The position numbers were made by a program, and so were the translations under genes. 64,000 nt of DNA, taken from NCBI GenBank assembly GCA_947034885.2, contig OX344754.2, forward strand, positions 24,198,501-24,262,500. Direction: 5' to 3'. The notes below the pieces were generated by a model. That model saw only the letters and a list, made by a program, of their open reading frames with translations. It ran no database searches and was not told the origin of the DNA. Below are positions 39,579 to 61,269 of this stretch, in pieces (within the stretch, counting starts at the first letter, position 1; the number at the start of each line of letters is the position of its first letter). This DNA comes from Thuidium tamariscinum (lineage: Eukaryota; Streptophyta; Bryopsida; Hypnales; Thuidiaceae).

Positions 39579-39726
39579 GTTCACTATAAGAAACCTATGT
39601 TTTAGATGACGGATTTTAAGTGACATTCAATGATGCAACCCATGTTTTTATGTCCAAACTAATGTCCGCCATAACATCTTGATGTTATGGCGGACATTAG
39701 TTTGGACATAAAAACATGGGTTGCAT

Positions 39727-39734
39727 CATTGGAT
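39727..39734 (+). repeat. 8-bp target site duplication, left
   Basis: CATTGGAT, identical to 61,270-61,277. Eight bases is the hAT-specific length. Confidence 0.95.
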
Positions 39735-39749
39735 CAGGGCTGTGCGGAC
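39735..39749 (+). repeat. hAT terminal inverted repeat, left
   Basis: CAGGGCTGTGCGGAC; contains one GCGGAC core, so the terminal repeat itself carries the element's recurring motif. CAGGG is a common hAT terminus. Confidence 0.92.
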
Positions 39750-39975
39750 GTCCGGGCGTCCGCGTCCGCGTCCGGACGTCCAGCATCCGGCACCCCGTGG
39801 ACGTCCTATGACATTTGAATTTCGGAATTTAGTGTGCCCGATAAAATACAGAGGCGGACGGCTGCCCCGGCAGCCGGCGTCGGAGGTCCCGTCCGCCCGT
39901 CCGCCCCGACCGCCGGCGTCCGCCACGAAAGCGATCCCGTCCGCTCCGACCGAGCGTGTCCGCCACGCGTCCGTG
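39744..39975. promoter_or_regulatory. Left-end GTCCGC array (subterminal repeats)
   Basis: About nine GTCCGC/GCGGAC cores in 230 bp, including a direct run GCGTCCGCGTCCGCGTCC at the very end. In hAT elements transposase binds short motifs repeated near the termini; position and density here fit that role. Open frames across it on both strands are by-products of its GC-rich composition. Confidence 0.75.
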
Positions 39976-40044
39976 ATGGCGTCCACATCGACCCTGATGA
40001 GAATGTCTGGAAAAAAAATTAAAACTTTTCACCGTATAAGGTAA

Positions 40045-40325
40045 CTAGTCAATTTAAGAGCTGAAATTGAATTTTGGGGAGGGAAAACGTCTTAAAATAT
40101 TTTCCAGTAAATTGCCTTTGAAAGACAAGTGGAATTGACATCTAACCGAAATTGTTTTATAATTTTTGAAGTTTTGTGGAATTAGTTATGAATTTTTGAA
40201 GTTGAAAGGGCATAGGGCTTTGAAAACGCCCACCCCTGCAATGTACACCCTTTGTACATTGCTGAAGGCTACAAAAAGAAACATGTACAAGTAGTGAAAG
40301 TAGGCGGTTTTAGGCGCATTGAACT
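40045..40325 (+). mobile_element. TAAGGTA-family MITE nested in the hAT element
   Basis: Matches 21,785-22,103: TAAGGTAACTAG start, GACATCTAACCG, GAATTAGTTATGAATTT, TTGAAGTTGAAAGGGCATAG, then a TGTACA pair. The right end is not clear. Confidence 0.55.
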
Positions 40326-42446
40326 TGCAATTGGTGGGGAAATTCATAATTAATTTTTGGAACAATGTACTTGATTACTTGAACAAGTTAACAAGAAGAT
40401 CAACAAGTTGGTTTTCCCAAAAAAAAATTAATGATGAAGATTTTGATTTTATAATTCCTTTAGGCGTTAATAGTCAGTAGTCATCAATGATGGCAAATGA
40501 CCCTATTAAACTGATACTAAAAAAATTAATAATTTTGTTTCTAAATTAATTCAAGAAATTTAAATTTTACTAGTAAAAACATTGAATATTAAGTAGTATT
40601 AAAATAATTTTAAAATAATGATGAAAATAATAAAATAATAATAATCTTGAAAACAACATCTTTATGTGGTTACATTGATTCCACATTAACCCCTAAAATT
40701 TAGGCATAAAAAAAGTGGATGTGCCTTGTTCAACTTTGATTCTAACTTTCAATATAGCCATTTTGGTATTTGACTTAAAATAAGAAAATGAAGCTTGAAA
40801 ACTTTTCTTTTTATTTGAACTTAAAATTTTGAAAAATTCCAAGAATTGAAAAATTTATTGCAATTGCAAGTTCTATGTGTTGAAATCCGTGAAACACAAT
40901 ACATTGTCTTTTTCATTCATATTTATTCGTTTTAAGATCAATCCTTAATTTCAATTGCAATATTCAATTTTCCATTTAACATTCATTAATGGTGAAAATT
41001 TCAAACTATTCCAATATATAGTATAATTGATATAATTTTCTTAACTTTTTACTTTAAAATTATTACAATAATATGTAGTTTTCATCAAGCAATTTGTAGA
41101 AAAATAGAATATGTAGAAAGTAGAATTTTACAATAGAATTTCTCTTGATAATGTATAAAATCAAAAATTTAATTTTCTTTAATAGCCAAATTTGACTTTG
41201 AGGTCTTTGTTATTGTAGTTTTTGGTTCAAAATTTTTTAAAGGCAAATTGAAAATTATATATAGTGATCTCCATTTATACTTGTACCTTTGGAAGAAATT
41301 GAAAGTATTTCGGATTTTTTCTGCTAGTTTTCTTATATTTATTTTTAATTTTTGTAAAAAAATGATAACGATTAGAATTTTTCTCTAAATCAATTGCTCC
41401 CATTTTTGGTTCAATTGATAATCAACTATTGTTTCAATCAAATTTTTGTTTCAATTGATTTGGTTATTTTTGTTTCAATTAAAAATCGGCACAAAATCAA
41501 TTGAAACCAAAATATAAATTTGATATCGATAAAATTCATAGTTTCTATTCCATTTGGTCAAATATCATCCTTAAGCTAAAATAAGCATATCTTATTTTGT
41601 TCAAACATCAATCTTATATTTTTATTACTTGAAACTATGAATTTTATATCTCTATGAGGAAATTCAAATGATTTTGAGAGAAATTTTAGTCATCTTTTTA
41701 GTTGCAAATATTAATTGGTGGGGAAATTCACAATAAAATTTTGGAACGATGTACCCTATTACTTGAACAAGTTAACAAAAAGATCGACAAGTTGGTTTTC
41801 TTAAAAAAAATTTAATCATGAAGATTTTGATTTTTGACATTCCTTTCGGGACAAGTTTTTAGTGTTTTGAAGTGCATTTGGGGCACGAATCCTTCTGGGG
41901 TTAATGGCATTTTAGAATTTTGAATCATGATCTGTCCATGTCATGCTTTTATTTAAAATTGCCATAAATTTCTCAGAGCTCCGCAAAAAGAATTTTGTCA
42001 TTTGAATTTCATTTGTGAAACGTTTGTACACCTCTGAAAAATATATAACTCTCTTGAAGTTCACCCTAACATACTCAGATTGCAAGTCAGGGCGCTAATA
42101 GGTACTTCTACCTTACTTACTACTTAGACCTTATACATCATGCAAATTGTTACACAACCTTATCAAGTATCTATGTGCACAACAACATCTACCAACAATA
42201 AATACTATTGATCTCATCCCCCCCCGAATACGTTTGTCTATCAAATATCAAAGATCAAAAACATTAATAGCTGAAATTTTCAAATGCTTTCAGTAATTCA
42301 AAAAATATAATAGATTTCATTTGGGTTGCCATACATTGGTGCTCCGTATATATACTACGTATTATATATGCCGCACGTATACATTCTCTCTATAATATAG
42401 ACTACATATCATTCTATACTTACGTATGCTACTATACTATGCCGAT
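40326..42446. other. AT-rich spacer of the hAT element, no gene
   Basis: No coding sequence recognised. AATTGGTGGGGAAATTCA-AAT-AATTTTTGGAA and CTTGAACAAGTTAACAA blocks near 40,330 recur at about 41,710, a diverged direct repeat. A TAGGTACTTCTACCTTAC end-like string lies at 42,100. Confidence 0.4.
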
Positions 42447-43949
42447 CTATTCATACGAACGCCGAAAGTGCTCATTGGGAATTGACCAGTTGAAAGTACT
42501 GGTCCAACGATTGATGATGCGTGCCAAATCGCCCGCATTCTCCGGGCCGTCTTTGCAAGGGCGTTCCAAGTACGCACGAAATGACATTGCCAACGCTTGG
42601 TGATCAAATTTACTCATGCTTGCCGTTTCCATGTTCAACTTGTGGTACTCCTCTGACATGCAATCCCTGTTAATTGCCATGGCTATTTTGCACACCGTGT
42701 ACTCCTCCGTTGCAATGGATAAACTTGGAATTACTTGCACGTTTTTGTCTTTTTCGTGCAAATATGCAATCTTCGAGGTCACCCACCAACGGTTTTGCAA
42801 AGCAGCATCCATCTCTTGTTTGGATGTGAACACGTACAATGACTTCGGTGGTTCTGTAACGTACGAAGTCATGCCCCAATCGCACACTCCAATGTATACG
42901 CGCGACTCGTCCGTGGGAAAGTGCAACATAATGTTGTCCAGTGAAATATCATTGTGCAAATATCCTGCATCGTGCACCGCATGCATGATATGCAACAACG
43001 CCCATGCTAGCTCCGTACGTTTCTTCCGAAATCGTGCAAGATGACCTGCGGCAATGACATCCGCATCCGTTGGCGAGCTATATTGCAAGTGCATACCTAT
43101 GTTGTCTGGATAAGTTCTATCCAAATGCATCATCTTCCGCAAGGTCCCGCCATTCCACCAATATGCATATCCTTCATTCCTCCTTGCATGAACTGCATAA
43201 AACCGTATCACTCCGGGATGGCCAATCCGCACCGCCATGGACTCGTTTTAGTGTTCCGCCTTTGCAAGATGAAGTAGCGTCTGCTGTACATTAGATAGCT
43301 TTGCTGCAAACTCCCAATACTCAGGTATTTCACGGCATCCCCGAATTTGCACCCTCCGAATTGTTGCGTACCTGCCTTTGGTCACGACATCATCACAATA
43401 AATCACGGTCGCCGTGTCTGGAAGTGCTATTAGATGCTTCCTGCCTTCCGTCAATTCAACCATTCCATCCTTGGTTTTCCACCAACCCATAGATCCTCGT
43501 CTGTTCCTGGCAGACGCGAATGGAGCACATCGGCCGACAAACAATTCAGCCCTTAAAATGACTTGCTGAAATGCAGCATCATGTTCACGGTGAAACTTCC
43601 CATACTTCGTTAAGATGGCCTTTGCATTCCACAACGCGTCATGCACCTTATTTTTCAATAACTGCTCAAAGCCAATCTTATCCATTTCACTGTGCCATTG
43701 TGGAACAGAAACCGCATCCATCAATCGTTGCCACATGTCGTCCTTGAATTTTTTAGGACAGTCCTCATTGTAGTGAACATACTTCATCTGCAAGGACATC
43801 GTGCTCTCCGATTCGTAGAAGTCCACGATCACTTTAATCATCATATCATTCAATGCTTCAGAGGGCTTGTTTGCTTTTGCCTCCTCTTTAGATGGACCTG
43901 CCACCTCCTCCAGTTTCCTTTTACCCGCCTTCTTTGTTCGTCCCATCAT
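42447..43949 (-). pseudogene. Protein-kinase-like gene carried by the hAT element
   Basis: The open frame from ATG 43949 runs 233 codons to a TAA at 43,248-43,250, then continues in the same frame to 42,447 (501 codons in all). The second part has a kinase catalytic core: HPGVIRFYAV, WWNGGTL, then YLHNDISLDNIMLHF (HxD with catalytic Asp and the following Asn) and VCDWGM (in place of DFG). The first part has a lysine-rich start, MMGRTKKAGKRK, possibly nuclear, and a degenerate N-lobe (VVTKGRYATIRRVQI) with no plain VAIK lysine. Function unknown: host kinase-derived, perhaps acting on the transposase or host proteins. The stop falls between the N-lobe and HPGV, where kinases have no natural break, so it is a lesion unless recoded. 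A GTCCGC array and TATA box lie upstream. Confidence 0.75.
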
Positions 43950-44104
43950 GATAAAAATCACGTCAAAACTTCGAAAAAAAGCAACAAGGGGGCCCCAATA
44001 ATGTCACCCTTGCTTTCCCTAGGAGGGGAACCAATGGAGACTTAAAAAGCCACCAAGCTTTCCACTCCACGCTTGCAAAATGCAAGGGAGAAAACAAGAG
44101 TGAA

Positions 44105-44363
44105 GGCGGACGGCCTAAACCGCCCCTCTTATACCCTGGCGGACGCCCTAAACCTGTGCGGACGACCCGACGAGGCGCTGTCCGCCGTCCGATCGATCGG
44201 ACGGCCGCGGACGGGCCGACGGATATGCGTCCGCCTCGTCGGACGGCAGCAGTCCGTCCGCCAACGCAATGCACGTCGGAAACGCGTCCGCCCGATCAGA
44301 CGGACAAGAAGTCCGCTGTCCGATCGATCCGACGGATGACCATGATCGGGCGGGTGCCGTCCG
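44105..44363 (-). promoter_or_regulatory. GTCCGC array and promoter of the kinase-like gene
   Basis: About ten GTCCGC/GCGGAC cores in 260 bp. A minus-strand TATAAG box at 44,133-44,128 sits inside the downstream edge of the array, 180 bp before the ATG. CGATCGATCG/ATCGATC pairs also recur here. Confidence 0.75.
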
Positions 44364-44377
44364 CCTAATCCAACGGT

Positions 44378-45085
44378 CTACTTTGTAGAAGGCCTTCATT
44401 TGAAATTTCACGTGAAGAAGGGCCAAAAAAATATGGAGAGGTTGAAATTTCTTAGAACATTTGTGTTCTATGACAAATTTTCATTTGGAAATAGAAATTG
44501 CCTATTTTTTATGAGATTCCAAAAAATAGGCTCCCTTGCGATATTTGGAGTTTTTTGGTAAGTGCCCTATTCATTTGAAATTTCACGTGAAAAGGGGCCG
44601 ACAAAAATATGGAGAGGTTGGAATGTCATAGGACATTTATTTTCTATGACTAATTTCCATGCCACATTTGAAATTGTCTAGTTTTGATTTTATTTCAAAA
44701 AATACGCCCCTTAGCCATTTTTGGATCTACTTTGTAAATGGCCTATTCATTTCAAATTTCACGTGAAAAGGGGCCGACAAAAATATGGAGAGGTTGGAAT
44801 GTCATAGGACATTTATGTTCTATGACCAATTTCCATTCCACATTTGAAATTGTCTAGTTTTGATTTTATTTCAAAAAATATGCCCCGTAGCCATTTTTGG
44901 GTCTACTTTGTAAATGGCCTATTCATTTCAAATTTCACGTGAAGACGGGCCCAAAAAAATATGGAGAGGTTGGAATGTCATAGGACATTTATTTTCTATG
45001 ACAAATTTCCATTTGGAAATTGAAATTGCCTATTTTTTATGAGATTCCAAAAAATAGGCTCCCTTGCGATATTTGGAGTATTAGA
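44378..45085 (+). repeat. Tandem repeat of about 177 bp, four units
   Basis: Units begin near 44,378, 44,553, 44,729 and 44,907. Each has CATTTGAAATTTCACGTGAA (or CATTTCAAATTTCACGTGAA), then GGGCC, AAAATATGGAGAGGTTG, TTCTATGAC, and ends with CCATTTTTGG or GCGATATTTGGAG before the next. Units 1 and 4 share the TTTGGAAAT and GATTCCAAAAAATAGGCTCC form; units 2-3 share another. It lies in the gap between the kinase promoter and the 3' end of the next gene. Confidence 0.85.
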
Positions 45086-45371
45086 AAAGAGGGGAAAACA
45101 TTCCGATGCAATATTCATATTTAAATAATAACAATAGCTACACATTGGTTAAATTTAATACTACAGGTCAAAGGTCCCATCCATAGATCCAATATTGTAC
45201 TCACGCATTTCAAAAATTTGTATTTTCATAAATACTTATAGGTTCGTGAGTACCCCTCACTAACATTACAATACCATGCTTGCCACCACCTACGGTACAT
45301 GGCAGTGGATTACAATCATTATACCGTAGTGCGGACTAGCTACTACAAGAGTGTAGTCTTTTTGTTGTACT

Positions 45372-46445
45372 TCACTCGGAATCTGAGTCAGTATCATCTC
45401 TCTGACTATGGCCTACAGAACTAGATCCATACACCCCCATATATGGTCCTCCACCGTACACGTCTCCTGCTCCGCTTCCCGCTCCTCCTTGTCCATAGTT
45501 CCCGTAATGAGGCCCTCCAAAGGTTGGAGGAGGAACTGAATCTCCATAGTAGGAGCCTCCTTCATTTGAACGGCCATGGTAAGACCCTCCATGATGCCCA
45601 TAATTTCCATATGAACCACCTCCACTAGACCTCGAATGGTATTGGGAGCCTTCTTGGGTAGAAGGAGCATTGTGCGCGGTTCCGCGACTTCCTCCTACGA
45701 TTTGAGAACGACTTTGCCCACCTCGTGGGTCATGTGTACCACGTTCACGTCCATAGTACCCATCGTAACCATATTGTGGACCACGATCTTCTATGCTTCT
45801 CCGCATTGCCTCACGCATTTCATGCTCGTATTGAATGTCCTCTCGAGCTTCTCTACGTTCATGCCTCTCTCCACCGGCCACGGATGCAGTAGCCTCTTCA
45901 ACATCATCATCATCATCTGGGACGGGCTCCTCTGCATCCGGCATCACTGTTGTAGGAAATCCAAATTGGCCTCGATTGGACCATTCGGGCATGCAATCGC
46001 TTGCATTAGTCCAACTCGTATAAATGACTACTTCATTGCGATTGAGAGTCGCCACATCTTTTCCATATATTGTGCGCCAATCAACATCTTTGTGAAGTAC
46101 AATCTCTGCCCAGACCATGGCCATGTTCGTATAATTCATGACATTTGGTTTGGAGTCACGTATACCAGCATTACGCGTCACTTCATCGTATTGGTGAACA
46201 AAGTGCCTACTGAGACACGTGGATGTTTGCCCTTCCCAACGGCGAACTTGTTGCGCTGCACGGTCCGATGCCCACAATTTGGCAATGTGCGTCATTTTCA
46301 CGTACTTCTTGCACGTAGTGGCGGTCCAAACTTTCTTTGGTTCACTCTTCCATCCGGGTTCACCAACACACATTGGATCATTCCAATCATCCCAATTTAT
46401 GCTTTGGGATTTCCCCTTGTTTTTCTTGTTTTCATCACGAGGCAT
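45372..46445 (-). CDS. Gly/Tyr/Ser-rich protein with transposon-specific N-terminal domain
   Basis: A 357-codon uninterrupted frame; ATG 46445, stop TGA 45372-45374. Residues about 20-130 form a domain shared with the RING gene of the same element: GW...W....CKKYVKMTHIAKLW, SRHFVHQ, then AMVWAEIVL and VDWRTIY. A charged helix-like stretch (ERREAREDIQYEHEMREAMR, about 195-220) follows, then a low-complexity tail of GGSY, GYGR and GGSYYGDS units to an acidic end, DDTDSDSE. Such tails often drive condensation or RNA binding; that is inference. No known enzyme motif. Its promoter has the element's GTCCGC array and a TATAAAAA box. It is the only gene in the element with no visible lesion. Confidence 0.78.
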   Translation of the reverse strand: MPRDENKKNKGKSQSINWDDWNDPMCVGEPGWKSEPKKVWTATTCKKYVKMTHIAKLWASDRAAQQVRRWEGQTSTCLSRHFVHQYDEVTRNAGIRDSKPNVMNYTNMAMVWAEIVLHKDVDWRTIYGKDVATLNRNEVVIYTSWTNASDCMPEWSNRGQFGFPTTVMPDAEEPVPDDDDDVEEATASVAGGERHERREAREDIQYEHEMREAMRRSIEDRGPQYGYDGYYGRERGTHDPRGGQSRSQIVGGSRGTAHNAPSTQEGSQYHSRSSGGGSYGNYGHHGGSYHGRSNEGGSYYGDSVPPPTFGGPHYGNYGQGGAGSGAGDVYGGGPYMGVYGSSSVGHSQRDDTDSDSE

Positions 46446-46727
46446 GGTGGCGTTGACTAAAATGAGAGCAACGGATGACTTCGTTCACACTAATTCCAGC
46501 AATAAGAAATCAAAATGCTTCAAAGTTACAGTGCGATGCAGTTTAGATGAAGTTGTAGTCCCTCAGAACCTGATCATTACTTCAACTAAAGTTCGTGAAG
46601 CATTTTAGTGATGATTAATGAAGCACAACCGTTTGCACACAACGTCGGAAGGGGCGTGCAGAGCCACAGATTAAAATCAGGCACTGGATCGTCCACTCCG
46701 AAGGGAAACGGTTGTGGCGAAATGAGC

Positions 46728-46960
46728 CGTCCGCCCCGCTTTTTATACTGAGCCGTCCGCCCCCCACCGAGGCGGACGGCCAGATGCTCATCCGACGGCC
46801 GAGAGGCGGACGGCAAAATCCAGCGGACAGAAATCGGCGTCCGCTGGATCGCACGGACATCAGGCGGACTCACCGAGGGACGGACGACGCGGACGGCGCC
46901 CGTCGGGGGCGGACGCAGGGACGGACGGGCGGACGGCGGCACCGACGGAAGAGCGGACGG
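46728..46960 (-). promoter_or_regulatory. GTCCGC array and promoter of the Gly/Tyr-rich gene
   Basis: About eleven GTCCGC/GCGGAC cores in 230 bp, with TATAAAAA on the minus strand at 46,747-46,740 near the downstream edge, roughly 295 bp from the ATG. The sequence after the TATA box (GCGGGGCGGACGG) resembles that after the kinase TATA box (GAGGGGCGG). Confidence 0.75.
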
Positions 46961-46991
46961 ACGGGTGGGGGGTTTGAAACCCTCAAAGACC

Positions 46992-47352
46992 TAAGGTAGA
47001 AGCACCTATTACAGCCGAAGTTAGTTAGTTTGCAGTTTCAGCATAGTTGGAGGCACCTTTTCCTATAAAGAATATTTTTGTAGTATTGGCAACTCAAAAT
47101 CATGAATTTCCAAAAAAAAATTAGAATTTTTGGATGAGGCATCTAATTTCTGTGAATTTTCAAAGTAGGACTTAGTAGAGCACCTAAATCTGCACTCCTA
47201 GTAAATCTGCCTAGATTCTCACACCAAAATCTAAAATAATCAGAACCCACCAAGCACAACTAAAGTTTCAAGGTACTAGTGGGGACACTTTGTAAGAAAC
47301 TCTAATGTCAAACTATGGATACACTGAAAATAATGGGTGCTTCTACCTTACA
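46992..47352. mobile_element. MITE, TAAGGTAGAAG ends, nested in the hAT element
   Basis: Left end TAAGGTAGAAGCACCTATTA and right end TAATGGGTGCTTCTACCTTA are 20-bp inverted repeats with one mismatch. About 361 bp, no coding sequence. Confidence 0.8.
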
Positions 47353-49179
47353 TCGATACTTGAATTCGGATAATTCATTGAGTAAGCATGTTACACTAGT
47401 TTAGGTTCTGAAACCAGCCAAGTTGATGTTAAATCTTCTCGAAAATCAGAAATAAATGCTAGATTCTCTTTGCAATTTGCATGCATTTTGGGGAATTTGA
47501 ACACTTCATGGAATAACTATGACTTTAGGTTTCAATGTTCAAATTATATGTATCCAAAATTCACCTTAGGACCTGATAGAGAGGAATGATTTATATTACC
47601 GTAGTACGTTTTTAATTTCAACAGAAATTAATTTCTTTTGGAAGAATTTGTAATTCTAGGAAATTATAATGATACTAGTCTTAAATATTGGAAATTGTCA
47701 ATATCATTTGTTGAAATTCAGGTGATTCAAATTGTTCCAAACATAGTAACACACCTTCTATGACAATTGACAAAGGAATATTCAAATTTAATGAAATTCC
47801 AATTGAAAGTTGGAATCCTAAAGGGTCATTCACTTTTGGCCCTTGTGGGGAAAGATGGGATTTGTGGTAGTACCTGCGGGCTGAAATTTCAAATTCGATC
47901 CTTGTTTTTAGTTTTTAAAAACTTCTTCAAAAGATAAAAAAATTGATTAACTTCCATGGAATGTAATTTTTTTCACAATTGATTCCCAATAACAACATCT
48001 ATGATCCAATGAACTCAAAATATTGAAAATAAGGGACGGGGGGTTGAAAAAAACTAGAACAATCTCACCATTGAGATTATTGTGTTTCAATCCCATGTTA
48101 GAGCTATTAATGATTTAGTTTTTCTTTCAATCTTGGACTTACTTGTACTTAAGAATTTTTTGAATAATGAAAATCAAGCCTATTTTTCTTGAAATTTTTG
48201 TCTTAGAATTTCAACTCCCATCTAAGTTCTTCAAATTCCTTCAAAAATTTTAATTCAAGGTCCATACTCCGTACTCCATAGTTCCAAAAAATTCCACGAA
48301 TAGCGATCAAAGTCATCTGATATTTTTGCCACTTTTTCCTAGATAAGTAAAGTACAAGATCCTAAGGTTAGATCCAAAGAAAAGTATTTTCTTGGTTTTC
48401 TTATAGTGAACGCATCAGAAATGACAGTTCTGAGTGGTTTGTAACAAAAAAATGGCCTTGGTCCTTTAAGGGTTAACAATAAAGGGAGAGATTTATATTT
48501 TATAACCATATTTTATTGCAAGACATTCTCAACTCTCAAGTTCTAACTTGTAAGGGCCTAATATAACAATTTCTAAACAAATTAGATAAATGTATCACCA
48601 TACTTTCTACAATTCTACAGTTAGAAGATGGTGACATTCATGATTGCATTAGCCATTAGAGGATGAGTGAAATTTGAAAATGATGCAATTATACTTGAAA
48701 AAAGATTTCAAAATGTGAAAAATTATAGAATCCTTCATTTCAATGTAAGTGAATGTAAATATGAAGGAGTGTACTTCAAATGATTTTACCCCTTACTGCC
48801 TTACTGGTTTGCATTTAGAAATATGTAAAGAGTATATGTTTTCTCTATTAAAGTAGGGTGCATACATTTTTTAAATTAATAATGTGTTGGATCCTTGAAT
48901 CATTCATCAATTTATTTTCACTATTTATTATTTTATATGACACCCATATTCCCATAATGCAAAAATGATGAAGAAGCTAGGGTTTAGGTTCTAGGGTTTA
49001 AGGTTTAGGGTTTGGGCTTGTCTACACTCTACAAAAGTGGACGTCGATGCTATTCGGATAGGGTGTAGGGTTGAGGACTTACTTTCTTTCAAAAATTTAA
49101 TGTGCAGAATGAAACTCAATTTCACACATACATAATACATTGAACATTGGATGCTTTTTCCAACCCTTCCCATTTTTAT
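47353..49179. other. Spacer of the hAT element with telomere-like repeats
   Basis: No gene. 48,979-49,015 has imperfect TTTAGGG units (AGGGTTTAGG, TAGGGTTTAAGG, TTTAGGGTTTGGG), the plant telomere repeat, too short to be functional. A GGTCCTTTAAGGGTTAAC end at about 48,460-48,478 matches the right ends of the TTAACCC MITEs; a possible partner is CCTAAAGGGTC at 47,818. Confidence 0.45.
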
Positions 49180-50180
49180 CCCTAAAAGCCCGCACTTTTT
49201 TTTTGGGATGTGTAGAAATTTTGGGTAGGTACCTACTACTTACGAGCGGGGATATCCAGATTTGAGGCTAAAATTTGAATGGAATTGAGTCAATTGACCA
49301 ATGTGGGGGTGAGGAAGATCTGTCATATGCACCAAATTTTCATGGCATTTGAAAATACCGGTCAAAGGTTATAGCCTAATATGTTAATTTTTTTTGTAAC
49401 AGGGCATTTCATGCAAATAAGAGAAAATCACTTATTTCATAAACAAGAATTCCACAAATTCTTTTTCTAGAGTTCTGGATACGCATGAAGTTTTGAATCA
49501 TTCCATTTTGATGAATGAGTCAAAAGTGATGTGGATTTTCTGTTTCTGGGTAATTTTGGATTTCCTACTCTAAAATAAACTTTGAAATCCTTTATCTTAC
49601 CCAACTTCCAATATTTTTGGACGAAAATAAAATCTTAGGATGTAGATACATTATTACAACATTTCAAATTTGCAACCACTGGAAATTTGGGATTGGGAAT
49701 TTTCAATTCCATATTTCAACTGTAAATAATGTGGTGCGTTTTATCATTCTCTACTACTACGTATTTATTAATTTTTTCCTATACGTTGTACTATTCCAAA
49801 TGATTTGAAAATTTTTAAGCATGTGCCCAACTTCTGTAGGAAAACAAATCCAAAGAAGCACGACCATTTAGGTCATTTTTTCATTGAAATGTGAGCTTGG
49901 GAAGTGCAGCTGCCTTGCTTTTCGGCTTTCGCAGTGTAAAAAAAATGATTTCAGTTAATTTGAATGCTTATATCTTGTAATCCACTCGGTGGAAATGTTT
50001 GAAATTTTTACCACATGCTTTTGATACTATACAATACAATATCCTACGATCAGATATGTCAAAAAAAGTTTTTTTCCAAAGATTTTGGTACTTGTACTAG
50101 AAATGGCAGTTTTGGTTTTTTGGAGGCAATTGGAGCGCTTTTGGTGAAAGTATATTGACGGTCCTGCCTTTAAGGGTTCA
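49180..50180 (+). mobile_element. TTAACCCC-type MITE module A
   Basis: Collinear with 59,879-60,838: CTAAAATAAACTTTGAA, CCAATATTTTTGGA, ATTGGGAATTTTCAATT, GTGCAGCTGCC, GGTGGAAATGTTTGAAATTT, ATCCTACGATCAGATATGTC, TGTACTAGAAATGGCAGTTTT and a TTTAAGGGTT end. It lies directly before the RING gene's GTCCGC array, just as module C lies directly before the right-end array. Confidence 0.6.
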
Positions 50181-50287
50181 AGCTTTAAATATGACTTTTG
50201 GAGAACCCAATGTTCACTTTGGACTTGTGGAATCCAATGTCGATTTTTCACTTCTGGAATCCAATGTTCAGTTTGGACTTGAAATCT

Positions 50288-50480
50288 GAGCGGTCGGCAG
50301 GGCGGACGCCTTTGTCGGACGCCCAGTCGGCCGTCAAGGCGGACGGGCAGGGCCGAAGGGCGGACGGGCGGATGGGCGGTCGGACGACCCGAGGCGGACG
50401 CCCGGTTCGGTGACGGTCCGCAGTGGCCGTCCGCCGGTCCGGTGCCGGACCTGTCTAGGTCTGGCGACGGACGGGTATAT
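50288..50480 (+). promoter_or_regulatory. GTCCGC array and promoter of the RING gene
   Basis: Six exact GTCCGC/GCGGAC cores plus several TCGGAC and ACGGAC variants in 150 bp, followed by TATATGG at 50,476, 245 bp before the proposed ATG at 50,721. Confidence 0.72.
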
Positions 50481-50720
50481 GGTCGGATGGCCCCTTCATT
50501 TTCCCTCACTTCTTCTCTCCTCACGAAGTGACCCAAGTCGGATGGGCTGCTTATTGCCACGTGTGAGTGCGTGGTGCTAGTTGCTCCTACTTGGCGGAGA
50601 GAAGGGGTCATTACTTTTTCACGTCAAAGCTTTGACCGATTGTATTACGAAGACACGTTTCATACCCTTCGGTTCACAGAATTTTGATTTGCAAGGGCTT
50701 GTAAATTCGGATTCTCTATC

Positions 50721-53700
50721 ATGGCTACAAACAGCGGTGCAGGTACTGATGGGATGAATTCAGGAGGTGACCAGAAAAAGCGAAATAAAGCGAAGGGGAC
50801 TACACATGGATACACTATGAAATTTTGGATGATCCGAACATCATAGCAGAGAGCGGTTGGGAAAATGAGACCGCAGATTATTGGACCTCCAAACTATGTA
50901 AGCAGTACGTTAAAATGTACCACATCAACAAGTTGTGGCCTCGGGATGCACACGCACGCCAGACTGCGGATTTCAACTGTAAACCACACGGTTGCATTGA
51001 CCCGCACTTTGTCCATCGAGCGACAGAGGTGTGGGGGGCCATGTTTGGCCCTAAACCAATGTCTAAAGGGTACATCAACTACAGCTTGGCGTCCATGGTG
51101 TATGCAGAACTGAGATTGAAACGCAAGGTGGATTGGAGCACGTTCCAAACAACAAAGAAGAATCCTCTACTGCTGCAGCAAAATCAAAAGGATATTCCTG
51201 ATTCCTGGCCAACGACGGCGCAGAGGGTACAACCAAGCTTACAAAATCCAGCAACGCCTACAACGATGGCCTCAGCAAGCGCATGTGCGAAACCACAGTT
51301 GGATTCGAGGGAGACAACATCGAAAGTTATGGACGTTTCTGCGGTTCATGTGAATGACCAAAACAAATCTCCCAACCGGGAAGAGCTCGTCAACAAAAAT
51401 GGTGGCTTGTCTTCTCCGAAGACGGACCCCACGGATGAAGAGGTTGCAGGGGCCAATGTCACAATTGGACATTATGTAGACATCGGTGTTTTAGATAGTT
51501 TGGGATATGCAGCTCCAAATCCACAGTTGCCAACATCGGAGAGCCCATTGTGTACTCCAATCACTCAAGAGGACCTGTCAAGAACGAATATGCAACAATC
51601 CAATGCTGCAAAGACGAATGTGACAGTGGATACATATGAGTTTATAAAAAAGTATCCACATTTGTCAAGTTTAGACTCGACTAGCTTCAAGAATCTTGTT
51701 GCAATGCCACAGATTCCACATTTGGAAGGCTTGCTTGACCTTAGTATGAAGTGGAAGACAGTTGAAGAACGTTTGTTTCCATTTGAGCAACGGACTCAGC
51801 AGAACGAGCTAGAAAGCAGTACTCCACCGAAGAAAGTATATAAACCCGCTGACTTTCCACATGCCGCTTTGGCATTGACAAGAACTGCCACATGGATAGA
51901 TGAATTGGCTCCAAGGGTTGGTGCGTTTGCCGATGAATTAGCGTCCCTAGCTCCTACACTATTGAGCGGTGTGACGGCTTTCCTGCACTTCACCGATCAA
52001 ATGTTACCAATTCTCACGTCCGCGATTCATTGTGAAGAAAGTCACGCTCAATTGAGGGAGGAGCTAAAAGAAAGAGGAAGAGATATTATACGGTTGAGGG
52101 TTGCGCTCACCAGTGAACTTGAACAAGAGAAACGCGAGGACAGGATTCAAAGGATGGCTGAATCATTGAAATGTATTGAGCCAAGTCAAGGGACTCAAGG
52201 TAGCGATCAACTCTCTCTTCCAATGGACAAGGGCAAAGCTCATGTCGAGCCAGAGGAACGAACTTTGCCGATTGGCCGTAAAAGTTGGCTTGACTTGCAA
52301 AAAGAACTGGACCAGTCCAATGCCGAAAAAGCCCTTCTTCAGTCCAAGTTGGATCAAATGATACGAGTGCAGGCCATGGATGAATATTTGCCTAGGAGCG
52401 GATCGGAGTCTCGTTGGTTGGGATGGGTACAAAAACTTCAAGACCCACCCTTGTTAGCAGCTCGAGAAATGAATAAGCTTCGTATGATTGCATTGAAGGG
52501 TAACGATGAATGCAATGCTGTCGAGAAACATTTGAAGAAGTTCGAGAGCGAGGTGGATCGCCATCCAATTGAGAGTGCTTCAATCACATGTTGGGGAAAC
52601 ACAGATGCTATGATGGAGCGCTTGAACCACACAAAGAAAACGGAGGGTGGAAATATCAATTGGGCCTTGGAAGTAGAGGAAGGATGGGTCCCTTACCAAA
52701 TGCTTTCAGCACACATCAACAACAAGGAGAAGCGTGTTATGCATAATTTTGATGCAGGTCATAAAATGTTGGATGGTATTTGTACAATTTGCCAATACGG
52801 TTTTGGACCTGAAGGAGCCATAACCTTGGGCCATTGTGGCCACACTTTTCACGTGCGGTGCATCATTAAAGCATCAATGTTTAGCTCGGTTTGTACCGAA
52901 TGTCGTTCTCCTTTGAGTCCTAGGTTTTATGAATTGTTTGGACTCTTGGATGTTATGCCCCCCGGCCAGGAATACAACAGGTGGACCCTTCCATTGGACC
53001 AAGGGCCATACGAATTTGTGAATTATAAGCATTGGGGCAAACCTCTACAATGGAACCCAACAGAACGGAAGCATGCATTGTACGATGACGTCCGTGGTCC
53101 AGTGGATGCTTTCAATTGGATGACCCAAACGAATGAGGTGGAAATACGTGCCCGTTCAATTGACGATGATGAGGGTCGTGAATTGTTTTGTCGCAATATG
53201 GAGGGGCATTGGAGCGTGCAACGTAATAAGTTCTTCCGGTTTCTAGAGAAGCACGTGGAGAAAACGGAAGGTGGAGAATGGGTTGTCGTGGAGGATTCAG
53301 AAGAATTCAAGGAACAATATGCGGCATACGACCACGGTTTGATAGGTCGGGCCTTGTTGTTGTCAAAGTTGGAAGAAGCTGCCGAATATCGTACTTCCGT
53401 GGACATAGATGCGGAATGGAACACAAGCGAACCAATGGTGGAGGTGGTGGAGGCGTTTGACCGGCGGGTTGGGGAAATCATAAAGCAGTGGAGGACACTT
53501 CTATTCGAAGGATGTACAACCGAAAAATCATTGAATGAATTCTCATTTGAAGTGGCCAACAAAGTGGTAGACGAGGTCTTACTTCAATTGTAGTCTACTT
53601 TGTCAACCTTGAAGTTGAAGTCTGTGGATTTGACTCCGAAAAGAGAGAAGAAACGGAAGTTGGAAGATGATGATGATTATACAGTGGACACGGCAGAAGC

Positions 53701-53869
53701 ATTCAAAGTAGTTGAGCGGACTAACAAATCCGCACGACTAGTTGGCCCTGAAACGGTTGAAAGCCCTGAGGCCCAAGCTCGTCGAGAAAGTCTAAGAAGT
53801 GCAGCTCGACGCACTAAAGATGAATCGTCTCGTGGTTTGGGAGAGGGTAGTAGTAGTAAAACAAAGTAG
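50721..53869 (+). pseudogene. RING-finger gene carried by the hAT element
   Basis: The start is ATG 50721, whose short frame (DQKKRNKAKG...) matches the start of the Gly/Tyr-rich gene. The frame shifts by one base near 50,828, just before DDPNIIAESGW; aligning the two genes needs no gap if one G is restored. The main frame then runs to a TAG at 53,591-53,593 and, in the same frame, on to 53,869. Domains (residues counted from 50,825): shared transposon domain about 1-105; a long middle with coiled-coil stretches (LREELKERGRDIIRLRVALT, about 415-450; DLQKELDQSNAEKALLQSKL); and a RING near 653-697 (CTICQ, then HCGHTFHVRC, then CTEC) with all eight zinc ligands. The tail beyond the TAG has a nuclear-signal-like TPKREKKRKLEDDDD. 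RING proteins are usually E3 ubiquitin ligases; the target is unknown. Confidence 0.75.
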
Positions 53870-54867
53870 ACATGGACCTATACGTCTTGTATGAGTTTTT
53901 GATTGAACCATCGTATTGTATGGACTATGAATGGTTAGATGGTGATGTGGATTTTAGAAGGATAGAGCAATACTAGGTAAACATACACGGAATATGCTTT
54001 GACTTATTATCGGTTTTTAATATGAACATATATATGGAATTATTTATCTATCTATTCATTTATCTATCTATTTATGTATGTATCAATTAGTCAATGTACG
54101 TATTCACTATGCACAATACTTTTTGATGTGGAATGTATGCTATTAGAGGCATGGTATTGGATGTAAGAAATTGTGATTGAATATTATAATCTTTGAATTC
54201 TTAATTGATTTTGATTTGTTTTGTTTTTGTATATGATCTCTAATATGCCTAGTTTCAATTGGCACGGTTACCATGCAGAAAAAGAAATATACAACTTATA
54301 AAAATGTTTGTTGTTTGTTCAATTTGAACAAATTCGTCGATGCTCAAAAGAGGCCTTGGACATTTATGGGTAAACACTAGAGGTGTTTTCAATAAAATAA
54401 TATTTTCAGTAAACATGTATAGTTGTCAAAAAAATTCTAAGAACTACTTCCCTCGGTAGATTTGAAGTTGCTTTGTATGAGCAAATCCTTAGAACCTGAA
54501 ATTTGGCATACATATTATCAACACTGAGATGATCTCATGCCAAGAATTTCATGGCCAAATTTTAATTTCTCAATCTCTGCTTCTTTGGGAGGGTGTCAAA
54601 GTTGGTAGCATTGGAATTTTAGACACAACCACACATGTACGTAGATTTTGAAAAATCTTTTTCCGGGCAAATCTTTTGGCCTTGAAATTTGACGCATGTG
54701 TTATGAACATAGAGACGATCTTGTGCAGAAAATTAAATGTAAAAATAACAATTTTTGAGCCCTAGGGAGGGCGTCAAAGATGGTAGCAACAAGCAGGGGA
54801 TTTTTTTTTCCATGTGACAGCAAGAATTCGTAAATGAAGTAGACCTTACTGTATATGTTTTACGCAC
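53870..54867. other. 3' spacer with a duplicated 190-bp block
   Basis: No gene. A GATCT/TATTTATCTATC-like microsatellite lies at 54,045-54,085. A block at about 54,475-54,610 (GCAAATCCTTAGAACCTGAA onward, with GAGATGATCTCATGC and GAGGGTGTCAAAG) is repeated at about 54,665-54,785 (GCAAATCTTTTGGCCTTGAA, GAGACGATCTTGTGC, GAGGGCGTCAAAG). Confidence 0.5.
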
Positions 54868-54882
54868 GGCCAGTCCGCCTGG

Positions 54883-55090
54883 ACCGAAGTGGCTGTCCGC
54901 CCCCGACTGAACTGGCCGTCCACCCTCGACCGAACTGGCCGTCCGCCCTCGACCGAATTGGCTGTCCACCCCGACTGAAGTGGCCGTCCGCCCCGACCGA
55001 TTTTGCCGTCCGCTTCGATTCGGCGACTGTTGCAACGGGTATTAGACTGTCCGCCCCAACGGTCAGCTGCGCTTAGTTTACTATAAGTAG
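54883..55090 (+). promoter_or_regulatory. GTCCGC tandem array and promoter of the transposase gene
   Basis: Six to seven head-to-tail units of 22-23 bp of the form GTCCGCC(C)-CGACCGAACTGGCC at 54,893-55,030, then one more GTCCGCC at 55,049 and a TATAAG box at 55,082-55,087, 230 bp before the ATG. The array is more regular than the others and has an extended conserved half, CGACCGAA-TGGC, which may show the full binding site. Confidence 0.78.
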
Positions 55091-55315
55091 ACTGAGAGAA
55101 GTCATTTGTAAGCACTCCTGATGAACTGAACACTAAGATTTCCAAGGGCTAGGCGCTGCAAATTTATTTGTGTCCCTTGCTTGGTAATGCATAGTTTGGT
55201 GGAAGGGGGGGCTTTCATTTTGAAGGCTTTTTGCACTCAGTGCTTATTTGATTGTGGACTTTTACAACACAGTGCTAACGTTACCAATTACAATTGAAGG
55301 GAAAAAGAATTCAAT

Positions 55316-58300
55316 ATGAGCAAAGACTTCACCACTTGGTACACGATCCCGGAAACAAACAAAATACAATGCAAGGCTTGCAAGTGTGTGTTCGCCCGAA
55401 AAACTAGCCGTATGTTGAGCCACTTGGGATACGAAGGCCCTACGGGACAGCGTGATAGGGGCATCGGCTTGTGCTCGCAGTTGACATCTACAACAAAATC
55501 CTTATTTGTTAATTGCAAAGGGCTGTTTCCCAAAAGACCTGTTGCGGACGGAACGGATGGCAACGATATGCCAATGTCCACAAGCAATCTTTTGAATGAT
55601 AGGGGTACACCGTGTTCTATGCAAGAAGATTCATGCACCGCACCGGAAGAAGTGGTCGTTGTGTGTTCACAAATAACTCCAAATACGGAATCAGGTGGTA
55701 ATCGGCATACTTCGAGGGCATCAAGCAGTAGGCCTGCAACGCAGAGTAGGCTAGTGGATGGATTTGATGAAGTCAACAGACGCAAATTACATGCAACGTG
55801 GGCTCATTTTTTTTATTCAGCGAATATACCATTTTCAATAGCTCGGAATCCAGCCTTTCGGGAAGCGGTGAAGTTGACGGCTGAGTTTAAAAAGTCCTAC
55901 ACTCCTCCATCATACAATGATCTGCGACATAAATTGCTTGATCAAGCGAAGTCAGATATTCAAACGAAGTTGCTTCTGAGGACTGAAGATAGTATGAGGA
56001 AGTTTGGAGCAACACTGTCTTTTGATGGATGGAGCTCAGTGACCAACCGTCCATTAATAAATGCAATGCTCATATCTTCAGCAGGTGAACAATTCCTTGG
56101 ATCGGTAGATACGAGTGGACAGAAGAAGACAGCACCGTATGTGGCTTCTATCTTGGAAGAATTCATAGAGCAAGTGGGCCCCAAGAATGTAGTGCAAGTG
56201 ACTACGAATAATACCAATACAAACCCCGCAGCATGGAATTTGGTGTCCCATAAATATCCACACATATATTTTCAAGGATGTGTGGTGCATGCCTTGAACT
56301 TGTTGCTTAAGGATTGGGCGAAGCAACCATGGATCAAAGATTACGTGAAGGCTGCCGAGGTCGTTGTCAAATTCTTCAGGAAGAGGCACATGCCACTTGC
56401 CATATTTTGGAAATACGAGACGAGGTTCAGTTTGTTGAAGCCGTTGGAAACAAGGTTTGCTTCTTATTTCATCATGATTGACCGCTTGTTGGAAGTGAAG
56501 GATGCGTTGAAGCAGAGTGTGGTGGATCCACAATGGGTGGCGTACGTGAACACATTGGATGATAGAGACAAAGGCAAATCACGATCGTAGTCAAGGAACG
56601 TGTACAATACAGTTGTGGATGAGCATTTCTGGGACCGGTTGACCAATGTGCGGGAACTAACTGCCCCAGTTGTATTCGGTCTACGTGATTTGGATGCAAA
56701 GACGCCGTGCATGGGGAAGGTATTGCATATTATGCGGAATTTAGAAAAACATGTGTTTGGTCTACGAGGAGCACCTTTTTGTTTGGACCTTGACCGAGCA
56801 ATACCACTGGAGGAGTCCTTCGTAAAACGACGAAAGATGGGGGAGACAGACCTCCATTATGCAGGCGCTCTTTTGAATCCGTATCTTCTCCATGACAAAG
56901 AACTAGCCGACGATCAAGATGCAACAGAGAGATGCAAGAACGTTCTAACGAAGATATGTTCTACCGAAGAGTACGTGAAGGTGGTGAAGGAATTTGTAGC
57001 CTTCCGCTATAGGGACCCTCCATTCGATACCATGTTGGAGCCACAAGAACAAATGTTGTCGGCCCATGCTTGGTGGGATTTTGAAGGTGCATGTGGGAAG
57101 CTAATTGCTCCAATTGCCAAGAGGATTTTGGCCCAACCGGTGTCATCATCTGCATGCGAACGAAATTGGAGTAGCTACTCTTATGTTCACAACAAATCTC
57201 GGAACAAATTGGCAACAACCCGGGCAGCGGACTTGGTGTATGTGTACACCAATTCAAAAGTTGTGGGCGCATCGAAGAACAAGGATGAGAAGAAATGGTA
57301 CAGAGACAATGTGGACTACGAGTCCTCTGATGCAAGAAGCAATGCGGAAGACATCGATGATGGACTTCATCCACTTGACCAACGGGATGAAGGTGACAAG
57401 GACAATGACATGGACAATTTGTATGACGAAACGTACCGTAGTCCTAGTCCAATGAATGGTGGGTGGAGAGGCAATAATACAAGCATCTATGACTTTCACT
57501 CCGATGAGGAGAATGATGGGTACGGTGAAGATGAACCTCGTATAGCAAGATACGTGGATGGATCCAGATTTTTGAATAGCAAATCTATTCTATCGCAAAA
57601 GGAGGACGCTTTTGTAGAGATAGCGGAGGCGGATGGGACAACACTTCCCGATGGTGGGGATGGTGGCACGGATGAAGGCATTCATATTTGTCAATCTCCA
57701 TCCATAGGAGGGGTTCAAGAAAAGGATAATGATGAAGAAAATGATGGAGAAAGGGGTTGTACGAACAATGACGAGGTCCCGATCAATACAATTGCAGTAA
57801 AGGAAAATGGTATTGAATGTGTAGAAGAGGCCGAGAGTCCAAGCTTTGGCAATACACTCAAACGTAGAGAAGAGCTCATGCAAGATTCCCCAAAACCACC
57901 TCGGAGCGGTGCACCGGGTGCCATATTTGGAACTAGTAGCCAAAATCCGGACGATTCAAGGAGCTTAGGGCTTGGACATCGGCTTGTTAATGTTGGCAAG
58001 GCAAAGCAGCCTTGCATCGAATTTACTGCCACTGTATTATCATCCACCGATGATGACGGAGATGTGACATTGGCACAGATGAAACGTAATTTAGCTTTGC
58101 ACACCGCACCGCCACGATGCAATCTGAAATCAGCAACCTCTCCACCGCAATCTTCGAGGGCCACAAACATAATCGTTCATGGATGTCCCCAGGTAGTGAA
58201 ATTAGAAGTCAAAGTAGGCAATGAAGGTAATAAAAAAAGACCTATGCAGCCTTTCGCAGTTTCATTAGCGAAGAAATTGAATGCAGGTAGAACCCCCCTT

Positions 58301-58576
58301 CATATATGCCTACCTGTTGCGAAGAGGAAAATGAAACCGGTCGCGTGTATAAATTCTAGGGAAGAAATGAGCAAAGCCATATTGAAAGTAAAAGAGGAAT
58401 ACAAGAAGCCAATCAAGCGAAGGAAAGCAAAGAGAAGTAAGCAAGTAGAAGGCGCAGGATCTTCATTAGATGGTATGGAGAACACATCGAGCGATGAAGA
58501 CGTAGGATATAGACGAGGATGCGAGAGTAGTGGGGCAGAGGTGAAAGGAGATGATGATTATTGTCCTTCTAATTGA
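55316..58576 (+). pseudogene. hAT transposase with acidic C-terminal extension
   Basis: Cuts and joins the element's ends. ATG 55316; the frame runs 424 codons to a TAG at 56,588-56,590, then stays open in the same frame to TGA 58,576 (1087 codons). Order: BED-type zinc finger (CKAC at 19-22, HLGY at 36), DUF659-like part of the RNase-H fold with LSFDGWSS (Asp237, first catalytic Asp), QVTTNN (Asn298 where hAT transposases have the second catalytic Asp), then after the stop the hATC dimerisation domain WWDFEGACGKL, ending SSSACERNWS (third catalytic residue, Glu) and NKLATTRAADLVYVYTN. About 420 further residues are acidic (DDGLHPLDQRDEGDKDNDMD) and end in lysine-rich KKPIKRRKAKRSK, unusual for the family. 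With the stop and the Asn, this copy should not be catalytic. Confidence 0.88.
56588..56590 (+). other. In-frame TAG inside the transposase
   Basis: The codon lies between GKSRS and SRNVYNTVVDEHFWDRL, where other hAT proteins read through. The flanking sequence does not match the CARYYA readthrough context, and no plausible small intron removes it. Confidence 0.8.
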
Positions 58577-58794
58577 AGGGATGTAAGCTTAGGGCTTTAG
58601 ATGCTCATATATACCAAGAGTAGGTGATTACCATTTGTTGTTGAAGAAGACTTTAATAAACAAGGTTTGTTTTTGTCTTTCATAAATGGTACAACATCTT
58701 TGCTAAATCGGAGTATTGGACATCAAATGCAATATGAATGTTTAAATGTGCGCCTAAGGGATTGTAGTTTCACGAATGGGAATCGAAGAAAACC

Positions 58795-59741
58795 TAAACC
58801 CCTAAAGTTCCATGACTATGTATTCCCCAAAAACGCTCGAAAACTACCATTTCTAGTACAACTACCAATTTCCTTGATAAAAACATTTTTTGATACATGT
58901 AACCATAGGATCTTGTAGTATAATGTCTACAAAACATGTGGTAAAAATTTCAGAAAATTCCACCATGTGGATCAAAAGATATAAGCATTCAAATTCCCCT
59001 AAACCATTTTTTTAGTCCTGCAAAGAATTGGGCAGCTACACTTCACAAGCTCACTTCTCAAGGAAAAAATGTTGAAAATGGTGGTGCCTCTTTGAATTCA
59101 ATTTCCTAAACAAGATGGAGATATGCTCAAAAAATTTCATGTCATTTGGAATTGTACAACATATAGGAAAAAAATAGTAAGTAAAAAGAAGTAGAGAATG
59201 ATTCATAATACTAAATTGTTAAGAATTTAATTATAGAATTAGAAAATGACAATCCCAATGGTTGTAATGTTGTAATAATCAATCTACATCCTAGGGTTTT
59301 ATTTATTTTTTTAAATATTGAAATTTGAGTGAAATAAACAACTTCAAAGTTTCTTTGATAGTGGAGAATCCATTACTGCCCGCAAACAGAAAAACCTCAT
59401 AACTTTTGACTCTTTGATTGAAATGGAATGATTCAAAGCTTTCCACTTATATATACATGTAGAAAACCAGTTTAAAATTTTCATTTTAAAAAAAAGTGAT
59501 TTTTTCTGATCTTTTTTTAGTCCCGAAGACCTGAACTGCCCACTTACCAAAAAAAGCAACATATTAAGCCATAACTTCTGAGTCATATCTCCAAATGTCA
59601 TGAAATTTGATACACATGAAGATATTCCTCGCCCTACCTTCTATTAAAATTTGAGCCCAAAATATTCAAATTTCTAATCACACGTACCTGCCCAAAATTT
59701 CTATATAGCCCCTAAACGCATGTTGGTCCTTTAGGGGTTAA
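58795..59741 (-). mobile_element. TTAACCCC-type MITE module B (reverse)
   Basis: Ends TAAACCCCTAAAG and TTTAGGGGTTAA. On the minus strand it follows modules A and C: GGTGGAAT-TTCTGAAATTTT, ACATGTATC, CTAGAAATGGTAGTTTTCGAG. It is an inverted neighbour of module C with about 140 bp between them. Confidence 0.6.
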
Positions 59742-59878
59742 AATGTTAAAATATTTGCCTAAAATCTAAGGGGTTGTAGGTTCACAAATCCTAATTCAAT
59801 TTCAATATTGAAATGTTTAAATGTGTGGTTAAGGGGTTGTAGGTTCATGAATGGGAACCTAAAGAAACATTGAAATGT

Positions 59879-60838
59879 TTAACCCCTAAACGCCCAAACT
59901 GTGTTTTTTGGCAACATAGCAATTTTGGGCAGCTCACTACGAATGGAGTTTTTATTTTTTTTCTTTGAAATTCTCATACAACGTGTGTTCGAGGAGTAAC
60001 TTTAAGGCCCAACAATTTTCATAACTTTTGACAACATGAATAAAAAGTTATTGCATGATATGTGATTTCTTTTGCTCGGCGGGCAACCCGGGCAGTTGAA
60101 AACTTCTTCAGAAATCACTTTTTCTAAAATTTGAAATTTGAAATTCATTCTTTAGATTTTTATCTACTTGGAAAGCTTTTAATTATTCCATTTTGATTTG
60201 TGAAATGAAAGTTATGGGAGTTTTAGTTTGAAGGTAGTTTGTGGGAAGTTATGGAATCTCTACTCCAAAATAAACTTTGAAGTCCATTATTTTACTCAAT
60301 TTTTAATATTTTTGAAAAAAAATAAACACATTAGGTGAAGATTGTCTATTACAACATTACAACCATTGGGATTGGAAATTTTCAATTTCAAAAATTAATT
60401 ATTACTATTTTAATATTTTGATTCATTTTCTACCTCTTTCTACTTACTAATTGTTTTCTACATGTTGTAGAACTCCAAATGATTTGAAATTTTTTAGGCA
60501 TGTAGCTTACTTGACTAAAAGAATGAATCAAAAGAGTAACAACCATTTTGGACTTTTTTTCATACAAAAGTGAACTACTGAAGTGCAGCTACCCGGATTT
60601 TCGCAGGGACAAAAAAAGCATTTTTGACAATTCAAACACTATTATCTTGAGATCTATACGGTGGAAATTTCTGAAATTTTCTCCACATATTTTCAAACTA
60701 GTTTACTATAAGATCCTACGGTTACATTTGTCTTAAAATGTTTTTAAAAAAACGATTTTGCTGTTGTACTAGAAGTGGTAGTTTTAAAGTGTTTTTGGCA
60801 AAACATAGTCAAATACATTTAGGGGTTAAATATTCCCT
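59879..60838 (+). mobile_element. TTAACCCC-type MITE module C
   Basis: Ends TTAACCCCTAAACGCCC and CATTTAGGGGTTAA. Collinear with module A at 49,180 and inverted relative to module B. All three lack coding sequence. Confidence 0.65.
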
Positions 60839-60957
60839 TAGGACGTTGTACGTACACGAACCTGAATCCCAATAAATATGTGAATGTTAAAGAACACTAT
60901 GAACCCCCCTAAGACCCGAGGTCGAGGGTTGAAAAATAAAAAGGGGTCTGTCTAAAG

Positions 60958-61260: not shown

Positions 61261-61269
61261 ACAACCCTG
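61255..61269 (-). repeat. hAT terminal inverted repeat, right
   Basis: GTCCGCACAACCCTG; reverse complement CAGGGTTGTGCGGAC, one mismatch to the left end. Confidence 0.92.

Follow-up and report, generated by a model that had tools for sequence, protein, structure and literature searches.

A 64,000-nucleotide stretch of the Thuidium tamariscinum genome (contig OX344754.2, positions 24,198,501 to 24,262,500; the window throughout this text) holds a 21,535-bp hAT transposon, family A, whose two ends and four gene promoters all carry arrays of the same hexamer, GTCCGC/GCGGAC. From the sequence, we propose that the six arrays are putative binding sites of one element-encoded DNA-binding protein, likeliest the transposase acting through its BED finger, and we regard this explanation as a whole as reasonably probable. 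That a single protein encoded by the element reads both ends and promoters seems likely; that this reader is the transposase is favoured with less assurance.

Six hexamer arrays mark the ends and promoters of a hAT element

Both strands of the window together contain 62 exact matches to the hexamer, compared with a mean of 5.5 and a maximum of 14 in 100 dinucleotide shuffles, which bears out the enrichment implied by the initial annotation. When matches are joined across gaps of at most 120 bp and at least three are demanded, exactly six clusters emerge, of 11, 10, 11, 6, 6 and 10 matches, the first taking in two hexamers outside the element. The initial annotation had placed arrays at exactly six sites, both termini and immediately upstream of a TATA-like box in each of four genes. 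The six clusters and the boxes lie where it put them, but eight lone hexamers occur elsewhere (8880, 25505 and 38136 outside the element; 45331, 52018, 53716, 55544 and 57227 inside it, these five in or beside coding sequence). The left-end array is present and begins at 39744, but hexamers 39664 and 39690 sit in the hairpin of a miniature inverted-repeat transposable element (MITE) outside the transposon, and in genes 1 and 2 the array extends to both sides of the box. Similarly, GTCCGC/GCGGAC is confirmed at ends and promoters, but the true motif is longer, the 52 sites in the array islands giving a wider consensus of about GCCGTCCGCC. The features are as follows, with TIR for terminal inverted repeat and TSD for target-site duplication.

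39582..39734: left part of the MITE, outside the element, with hexamers at 39664 and 39690
39727..39734: left copy of the TSD CATTGGAT
39735..61269, plus strand: hAT element, family A, 21,535 bp; TIRs CAGGGCTGTGCGGAC / reverse complement CAGGGTTGTGCGGAC; TSD CATTGGAT on both sides
39735..39749, plus strand: left TIR, ending in GCGGAC
39744..39963: left-end array, 9 GTCCGC/GCGGAC
42447..43961, minus strand: gene 1, protein-kinase-like (HND..DWG), one in-frame stop
44106..44364: gene 1 promoter array, 10 matches, straddling the TATA-like box
44128..44133, minus strand: gene 1 TATA-like box, TATAAG; the same CTTATACC adjoins the corresponding array in copies C2 and C7
45372..46445, minus strand: gene 2, 357-residue protein, N-terminal domain in common with gene 3
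46729..46958: gene 2 promoter array, 11 matches, straddling the TATA-like box
46740..46747, minus strand: gene 2 TATA-like box, TATAAAAA
50302..50434: gene 3 promoter array, 6 matches
50476..50482, plus strand: gene 3 TATA-like box, TATATGG
50721..53868, plus strand: gene 3, RING-finger protein with the gene 2 domain at its N terminus
54873..55054, plus strand: transposase promoter array, 6 matches in a single orientation, tandem unit of about 22 bp
55082..55087, plus strand: transposase TATA-like box, TATAAG; 12 of 17 plus-strand family A loci have TATAAG at -234
55316..58576, plus strand: gene 4, hAT transposase (BED, DUF659, hAT dimerisation), in-frame TAG at 56,588
60960..61260, plus strand: right-end array, 10 matches in a single orientation
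61255..61269, minus strand: right TIR, ending in GCGGAC
61270..61277: right copy of the TSD CATTGGAT

The arrays form islands of 66-74% G+C that adjoin TATA-like boxes in an otherwise AT-rich element. Their counts within the islands (9, 10, 11, 6, 6 and 10) were each reached by none of 1000 dinucleotide shuffles of the same island. Among 192 strand-merged hexamers with five G/C, solely CGGACG, GCGGAC, CCGTCC and GGCGGA, overlapping words of this one motif, yield six clusters. Each of the four start codons has an internal array 160-513 bp upstream, and when arrays were placed at random in the internal non-coding DNA of the element, every start had one within 560 bp in only 5 of 200,000 trials. 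The longest exact stretch common to any two of the six arrays measures 11-16 nt, roughly the motif and its neighbour, indicating that the array spacers are not copies of each other.

Boundaries and gene content of the element

The TIR CAGGGYTGTGCGGAC, which is CAGGG-like, stands at both ends of the element. Once the element and one copy of the duplication are removed, the flanks form a near-palindromic MITE of 196 bp that has CACTATAAGAAAC ends and is self-complementary at 182 of 196 positions; the element is therefore a hAT transposon lodged inside a MITE. The BED, DUF659 and hAT dimerisation domains of gene 4, the 8-bp target duplication and the CAGGG ends together substantiate the hAT identity proposed at the outset. 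CACTA (En/Spm) elements are defined by CACTA termini, a 3-bp TSD and a CACTA-type transposase. A CACTA identity, initially read from the outer CACTATAAGAAAC repeats with their GTT flanks, was rejected because CAGGG TIRs lie further in, bordered by the 8-bp duplication, and the flanks join into the MITE, of which the CACTATAAGAAAC repeats are the ends; the transposase, moreover, is of the hAT type. The MITE flanks occupy 39582-39734 and 61270-61320, and a related hairpin lies at about 18010-18250.

A GTCCGGACGTCC-like palindrome is found near the TIR in A (39770-39781 and 61211-61224), in B and, less exactly, in C; it was seen before the right TIR of loci L069 and L070 and also in L081. One possibility is that the transposase recognises it as a site of its own, adjacent to where cleavage takes place.

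Pfam assigns gene 4 the BED domain PF02892 at 20.7 bits (cut-off 20.6), with PF04937 and PF05699 also above cut-off. The transposase of the window has Asn at residue 298, where at least 90% of aligned relatives have Asp; given this substitution and the in-frame TAG, this copy's own transposase would hardly be able to act on the arrays. Gene 3 is also damaged, with a TAG at 53,591 in addition to a frame change upstream of 50,825. Single in-frame stops in three genes prompted us to consider an alternative genetic code in which TAA and TAG encode Gln, which was rejected. Translation table 6 opens 41 frames of at least 200 residues across the window, and together with the frame change in gene 3 and the open transposase frames found in the genome, this makes decay a simpler account than recoding.

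The N termini of the gene 2 and gene 3 proteins are homologous (36% over 150 residues, E 7e-22). Relatives of this shared domain have an invariant C...HF, and a CxxC before it is common among gene 2 relatives; gene 2 of the window is without the first Cys of the CxxC, and the CxxC is also mostly lacking in gene 3 relatives. A Pfam search of the gene 2 protein, taken to E up to 1, gave no match. The domain is modelled with confidence (block predicted local distance difference test scores, pLDDT, of 88-97 over residues 11-150), and structural comparison of the model returned no match of weight. Protein-database relatives of genes 2, 3 and 4 share an identical longest-contig value of 17,649, and the values 45,926 and 8,444 are likewise common to paired relatives of genes 3 and 4, a pattern which suggests that genes 2, 3 and 4 travel together in these relatives.

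Two further repeats were observed. Just past the gene 1 promoter array, at 44420-45071, lies a tandem repeat whose units recur every 176 bp and are 79-85% identical. An AT-rich repeat family, 71-78% alike and present in both orientations, lies inside and outside the element (49415-50076, 58878-59387, 60237-60746 and 5092-5340).

Family A copies retain the promoter array

We then searched the 363-Mb assembly (19 contigs) for further copies. A two-hexamer pattern occurs 3361 + 3331 times, compared with 187 + 150 for the same pattern read backwards. The transposase has 47 listed genome matches at 85-100% identity, several without stops; some of these are two pieces of one copy, and 30 family A loci were fetched. 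The promoter array is present in all 27 fetched loci that include the transposase 5′ end, each with 2-7 exact copies of the hexamer from -485 to -266, where the sequence repeats about every 22 bp. The three loci left out of this count (L035, L036 and L038), in which the match begins inside the open reading frame (ORF) or at a later residue, contain 1, 1 and 0 exact hexamers over the 1.5 kb that precedes the match. The initial annotation had pointed to intact relatives lacking promoter arrays as evidence against its proposal; among these 27 5′-complete loci, some with stop-free frames, there is none.

The layout as a whole also recurs. A near-complete copy on C11, about 97% identical and without stops in its transposase frame, repeats the six clusters, with 7 (in the part of the left end examined), 10, 15, 8, 5 and 16 matches, and copies C2 and C7 likewise have arrays at all six positions. 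C2 is flanked by an 8-bp duplication of its own, ACATTCAT; none was seen around C11 or C7, so that two of the four family A copies examined show one. In a comparison of 25 loci (L009-L033), change at non-CpG dinucleotides amounts to 0.116 in the transposase promoter array, partly through misalignment, compared with 0.030 in the 5′ untranslated region (UTR) and 0.040 in the ORF.

The motif of each related group recurs at its promoters and the right ends read

Related transposases were sorted by hand into groups A-D on frame length and identity. Subfamily B, with many transposase frames of 1117-1118 residues, shares the motif of A but has different spacers. Its transposase promoters have hexamers in six of six cases (5-9 each), and in all six the distance from the first base of the last hexamer to that of the following TATAAG is 72 bp. 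Both right ends read in this subfamily have the motif (11 and 12 matches), as do both RING-gene promoters (16 and 11). Among the 41 best RING matches, RING genes stand beside 12 of the 17 hand-assigned subfamily B transposases, and tblastn added a thirteenth.

A more distant relative used as query revealed two further hAT groups, C and D, with frames of up to about 1240 residues in one and 1082 in the other, whose promoters have other motifs (GTCCGCGCCCTG in C; CCCGMKGTCGCC in D). All four group C transposase promoters contain GTCCGCGCCC words, and all four of group D contain GCGGTCGCC; GTCCGC occurs once in each group. The single right end read in each group has that group's own motif, with terminus GACAACCCTG in C and AAAACCCTG in D. 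The right ends read in B, C and D all appear to finish in CCCTG.

The match between ends and promoters was then compared across groups. In a count allowing one mismatch over 18 regions, with the D motif broadened after the D right end had been seen, each region is rich only in the motif of its own class. A D 9-mer taken from promoters alone matches the D end five times and the other ends 0-1 times. A comparison of 7-mers that uses no motif, between six ends and 11 promoters, is block-diagonal, with mean similarities of 0.33-0.46 within and 0.02-0.21 between classes. Of 20,000 label permutations, 4 attained its within-class mean of 0.382, a frequency near the floor given that the 11 promoters, which within one group are not independent, allow only 4,620 label arrangements in classes of 6, 3 and 2. 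When the commonest promoter 9-mer was instead chosen blind, C and D were again diagonal. The BED fingers of A and B agree at 28/38 positions, and other pairs have 12-16 identities.

Discussion

Proposed model of array function

We suggest that one element protein would recognise the array wherever it is placed. At the ends, many bound copies of the protein could build a transposition complex in which the ends are joined for excision, and at the four promoters the same binding would couple the transcription of the four genes to how much of the protein is present. Our guess at the sign of the promoter effect is activation or anti-silencing while the element establishes itself; repression at high protein level would fit the sequence equally. 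Recognition by the BED finger is supported by the family A TIR, which itself holds GCGGAC, by the binding of Ac transposase to subterminal repeats of this kind (PMC3260210) and by the close agreement of the A and B fingers, whose groups have one motif in common. The initial annotation had suggested that the transposase or a cargo protein also governs transcription of the element in a feedback circuit; its reading is supported in part, regulation and feedback being putative.

More tentatively, and as a picture that is quite possible rather than probable, this hAT lineage may have made its transposase the transcriptional regulator of the whole element, with the code at the ends and at every promoter replaced whenever the BED finger changes, such that insulated, self-regulating circuits would coexist in one genome. 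The fingers and motifs of A/B, C and D offer a natural series inside a single genome. Such a series would bear on how a transposase can shift its target code with transposition and expression kept intact, and on how large elements keep several genes on despite a silencing genome.

Evidence against the model and alternative readers

Several observations weigh against the transposase as a reader of matched ends and promoters. In the one-mismatch count, the largest off-class value, 3, comes from A-type words in the C right end. The same end is moderately similar to A and B promoters in the 7-mer comparison (cosine 0.18-0.22 for five of six), and these are the highest between-class values, with the GTCCGC core in common. 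The blind A 9-mer matches the A right end 3 times, equal to its shuffle maximum of 3, and the C right end 8 times; the top B word matches the C right end 5 times. An EM motif finder returned blurred motifs with some off-class matches. Both of these methods separate the classes less well than the fixed-motif count and the 7-mer test, above all for A, and the end comparison for C and D consists of one right end per group. The correspondence between BED fingers and motifs may reflect mere relatedness, A and B being the two most closely related groups anyway. At three of the four promoters in the window, the array contains hexamers in both orientations. At the positions fetched, two copies (C4:2391379 and C8:20712282) showed arrays only at the hAT promoter and right end and, in C8, also at gene 3; the remaining pieces of these copies mostly failed to align where they were expected. 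Finally, CpG decay between copies is about the same in the promoter array (0.115) as in the ORF (0.106), and the array thus gives no sign of protection from methylation.

To the same side belongs the homology of the gene 2 and gene 3 N termini, conserved in relatives with its invariant C...HF, which points to a cargo protein as the reader of the arrays. The product of gene 2 or gene 3, through the Cys and His positions of the shared domain, would then act in the manner of TnpA or VANC, lifting silencing and helping transposition. The confident model of this domain and the RING genes that adjoin subfamily B transposases also favour such a reader. However, gene 2 of the window and most gene 3 relatives lack part or all of the CxxC, and the BED finger already tracks the motif. 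Stretches of C and D had no RING, gene 2 or kinase match, although those examined were short, so absence is not established. On balance, we consider a cargo reader unlikely, but worth keeping in view.

The GC-rich composition of the islands and their place beside TATA-like boxes would also suit a host transcription factor that favours GC-rich boxes and drives the four promoters, with the end arrays binding transposase by coincidence or promoter mimicry. Three promoter motifs nevertheless coexist in one host, each matching the end of its own group as far as the ends were read. One factor would be expected to keep one motif, which makes this explanation very improbable. Copying alone, by duplication or gene conversion within the element, could similarly have produced end-promoter likeness with no function at the promoters, and the tandem-repeat-like form and fast turnover of the arrays are in its favour. 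Yet in two subfamilies whose spacers differ, the arrays have kept their place ahead of the TATA box, and no two arrays in the window have more than 16 identical bases in a row, so that pure copying appears remote. Recognition of ends and promoters by the BED finger of the transposase remains our preferred reading.

Other features of the window

Outside these subjects, a perfect inverted repeat with two 81-bp arms and no spacer lies at 3393-3554, with a one-arm relative (81%) at 36656-36749. The ORF at 16061-16891 contains part of a POT/PTR2 transporter domain. A legume-lectin-domain ORF (25068-26378) is followed 3 kb on by a kinase ORF (29325-30395); the two are perhaps parts of lectin receptor kinases, and they indicate a plant host.

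Comparison with known systems

The element resembles Ac/Ds and other hAT transposons in its superfamily, 8-bp TSD, short TIR and subterminal hexamer repeats. In Ac, the transposase binds AAACGG repeats that lie within 200 bp of the termini (PMC3260210), and the repeats described here are putative counterparts of these. Ac has one putative 807-residue transposase and hexamers near its termini (PMC3260210), whereas the present element spans 21.5 kb, has four genes and carries an array at every promoter. Our literature search, which covered only open-licence papers, found no hAT report of this layout of end and promoter arrays.

En/Spm belongs to the CACTA superfamily and has a separate TnpA protein, whereas the element described here is a hAT whose arrays stand at the promoters of four genes and at both ends. 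TnpA binds repeated motifs at the En/Spm ends and promoter. This protein is reported to activate its own element, an effect that correlates with DNA demethylation (PMC10398659).

VANDAL elements offer another likeness, limited to a feature that works alike, namely motif arrays in non-coding DNA that differ between families. VANC is a dedicated anti-silencing protein of an element that is not a hAT, whereas a hAT transposase is the favoured reader here. VANDAL elements are Mutator-like, and the system is defined by the Mutator-like transposase VANA together with VANC. The present element does not belong to it: its transposase is of the hAT type, and no Mutator-type domain is among the Pfam matches of the six window pieces scanned. 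VANC binds short motifs that form dense, fast-changing tandem arrays in VANDAL non-coding DNA, including introns and stretches that precede the transposase gene VANA21, and related families have different motifs (PMC5735166; PMC10398659). In the present element the promoter arrays match the transposition ends, a match that does not appear in the available parts of the VANDAL account (PMC5735166; PMC10398659).

The promoter arrays described here are separate and internal, which distinguishes them from MuDR. MuDR promoters lie within the TIRs. The MuDR transposase MURA, for its part, is reported to induce DNA hypomethylation of the element (PMC10398659). Self-regulation through motif arrays is thus already familiar from CACTA and VANDAL elements, and the likeness to them would be one of working; if our reading is true, it would extend this mode of control to a multi-gene element of the hAT superfamily.

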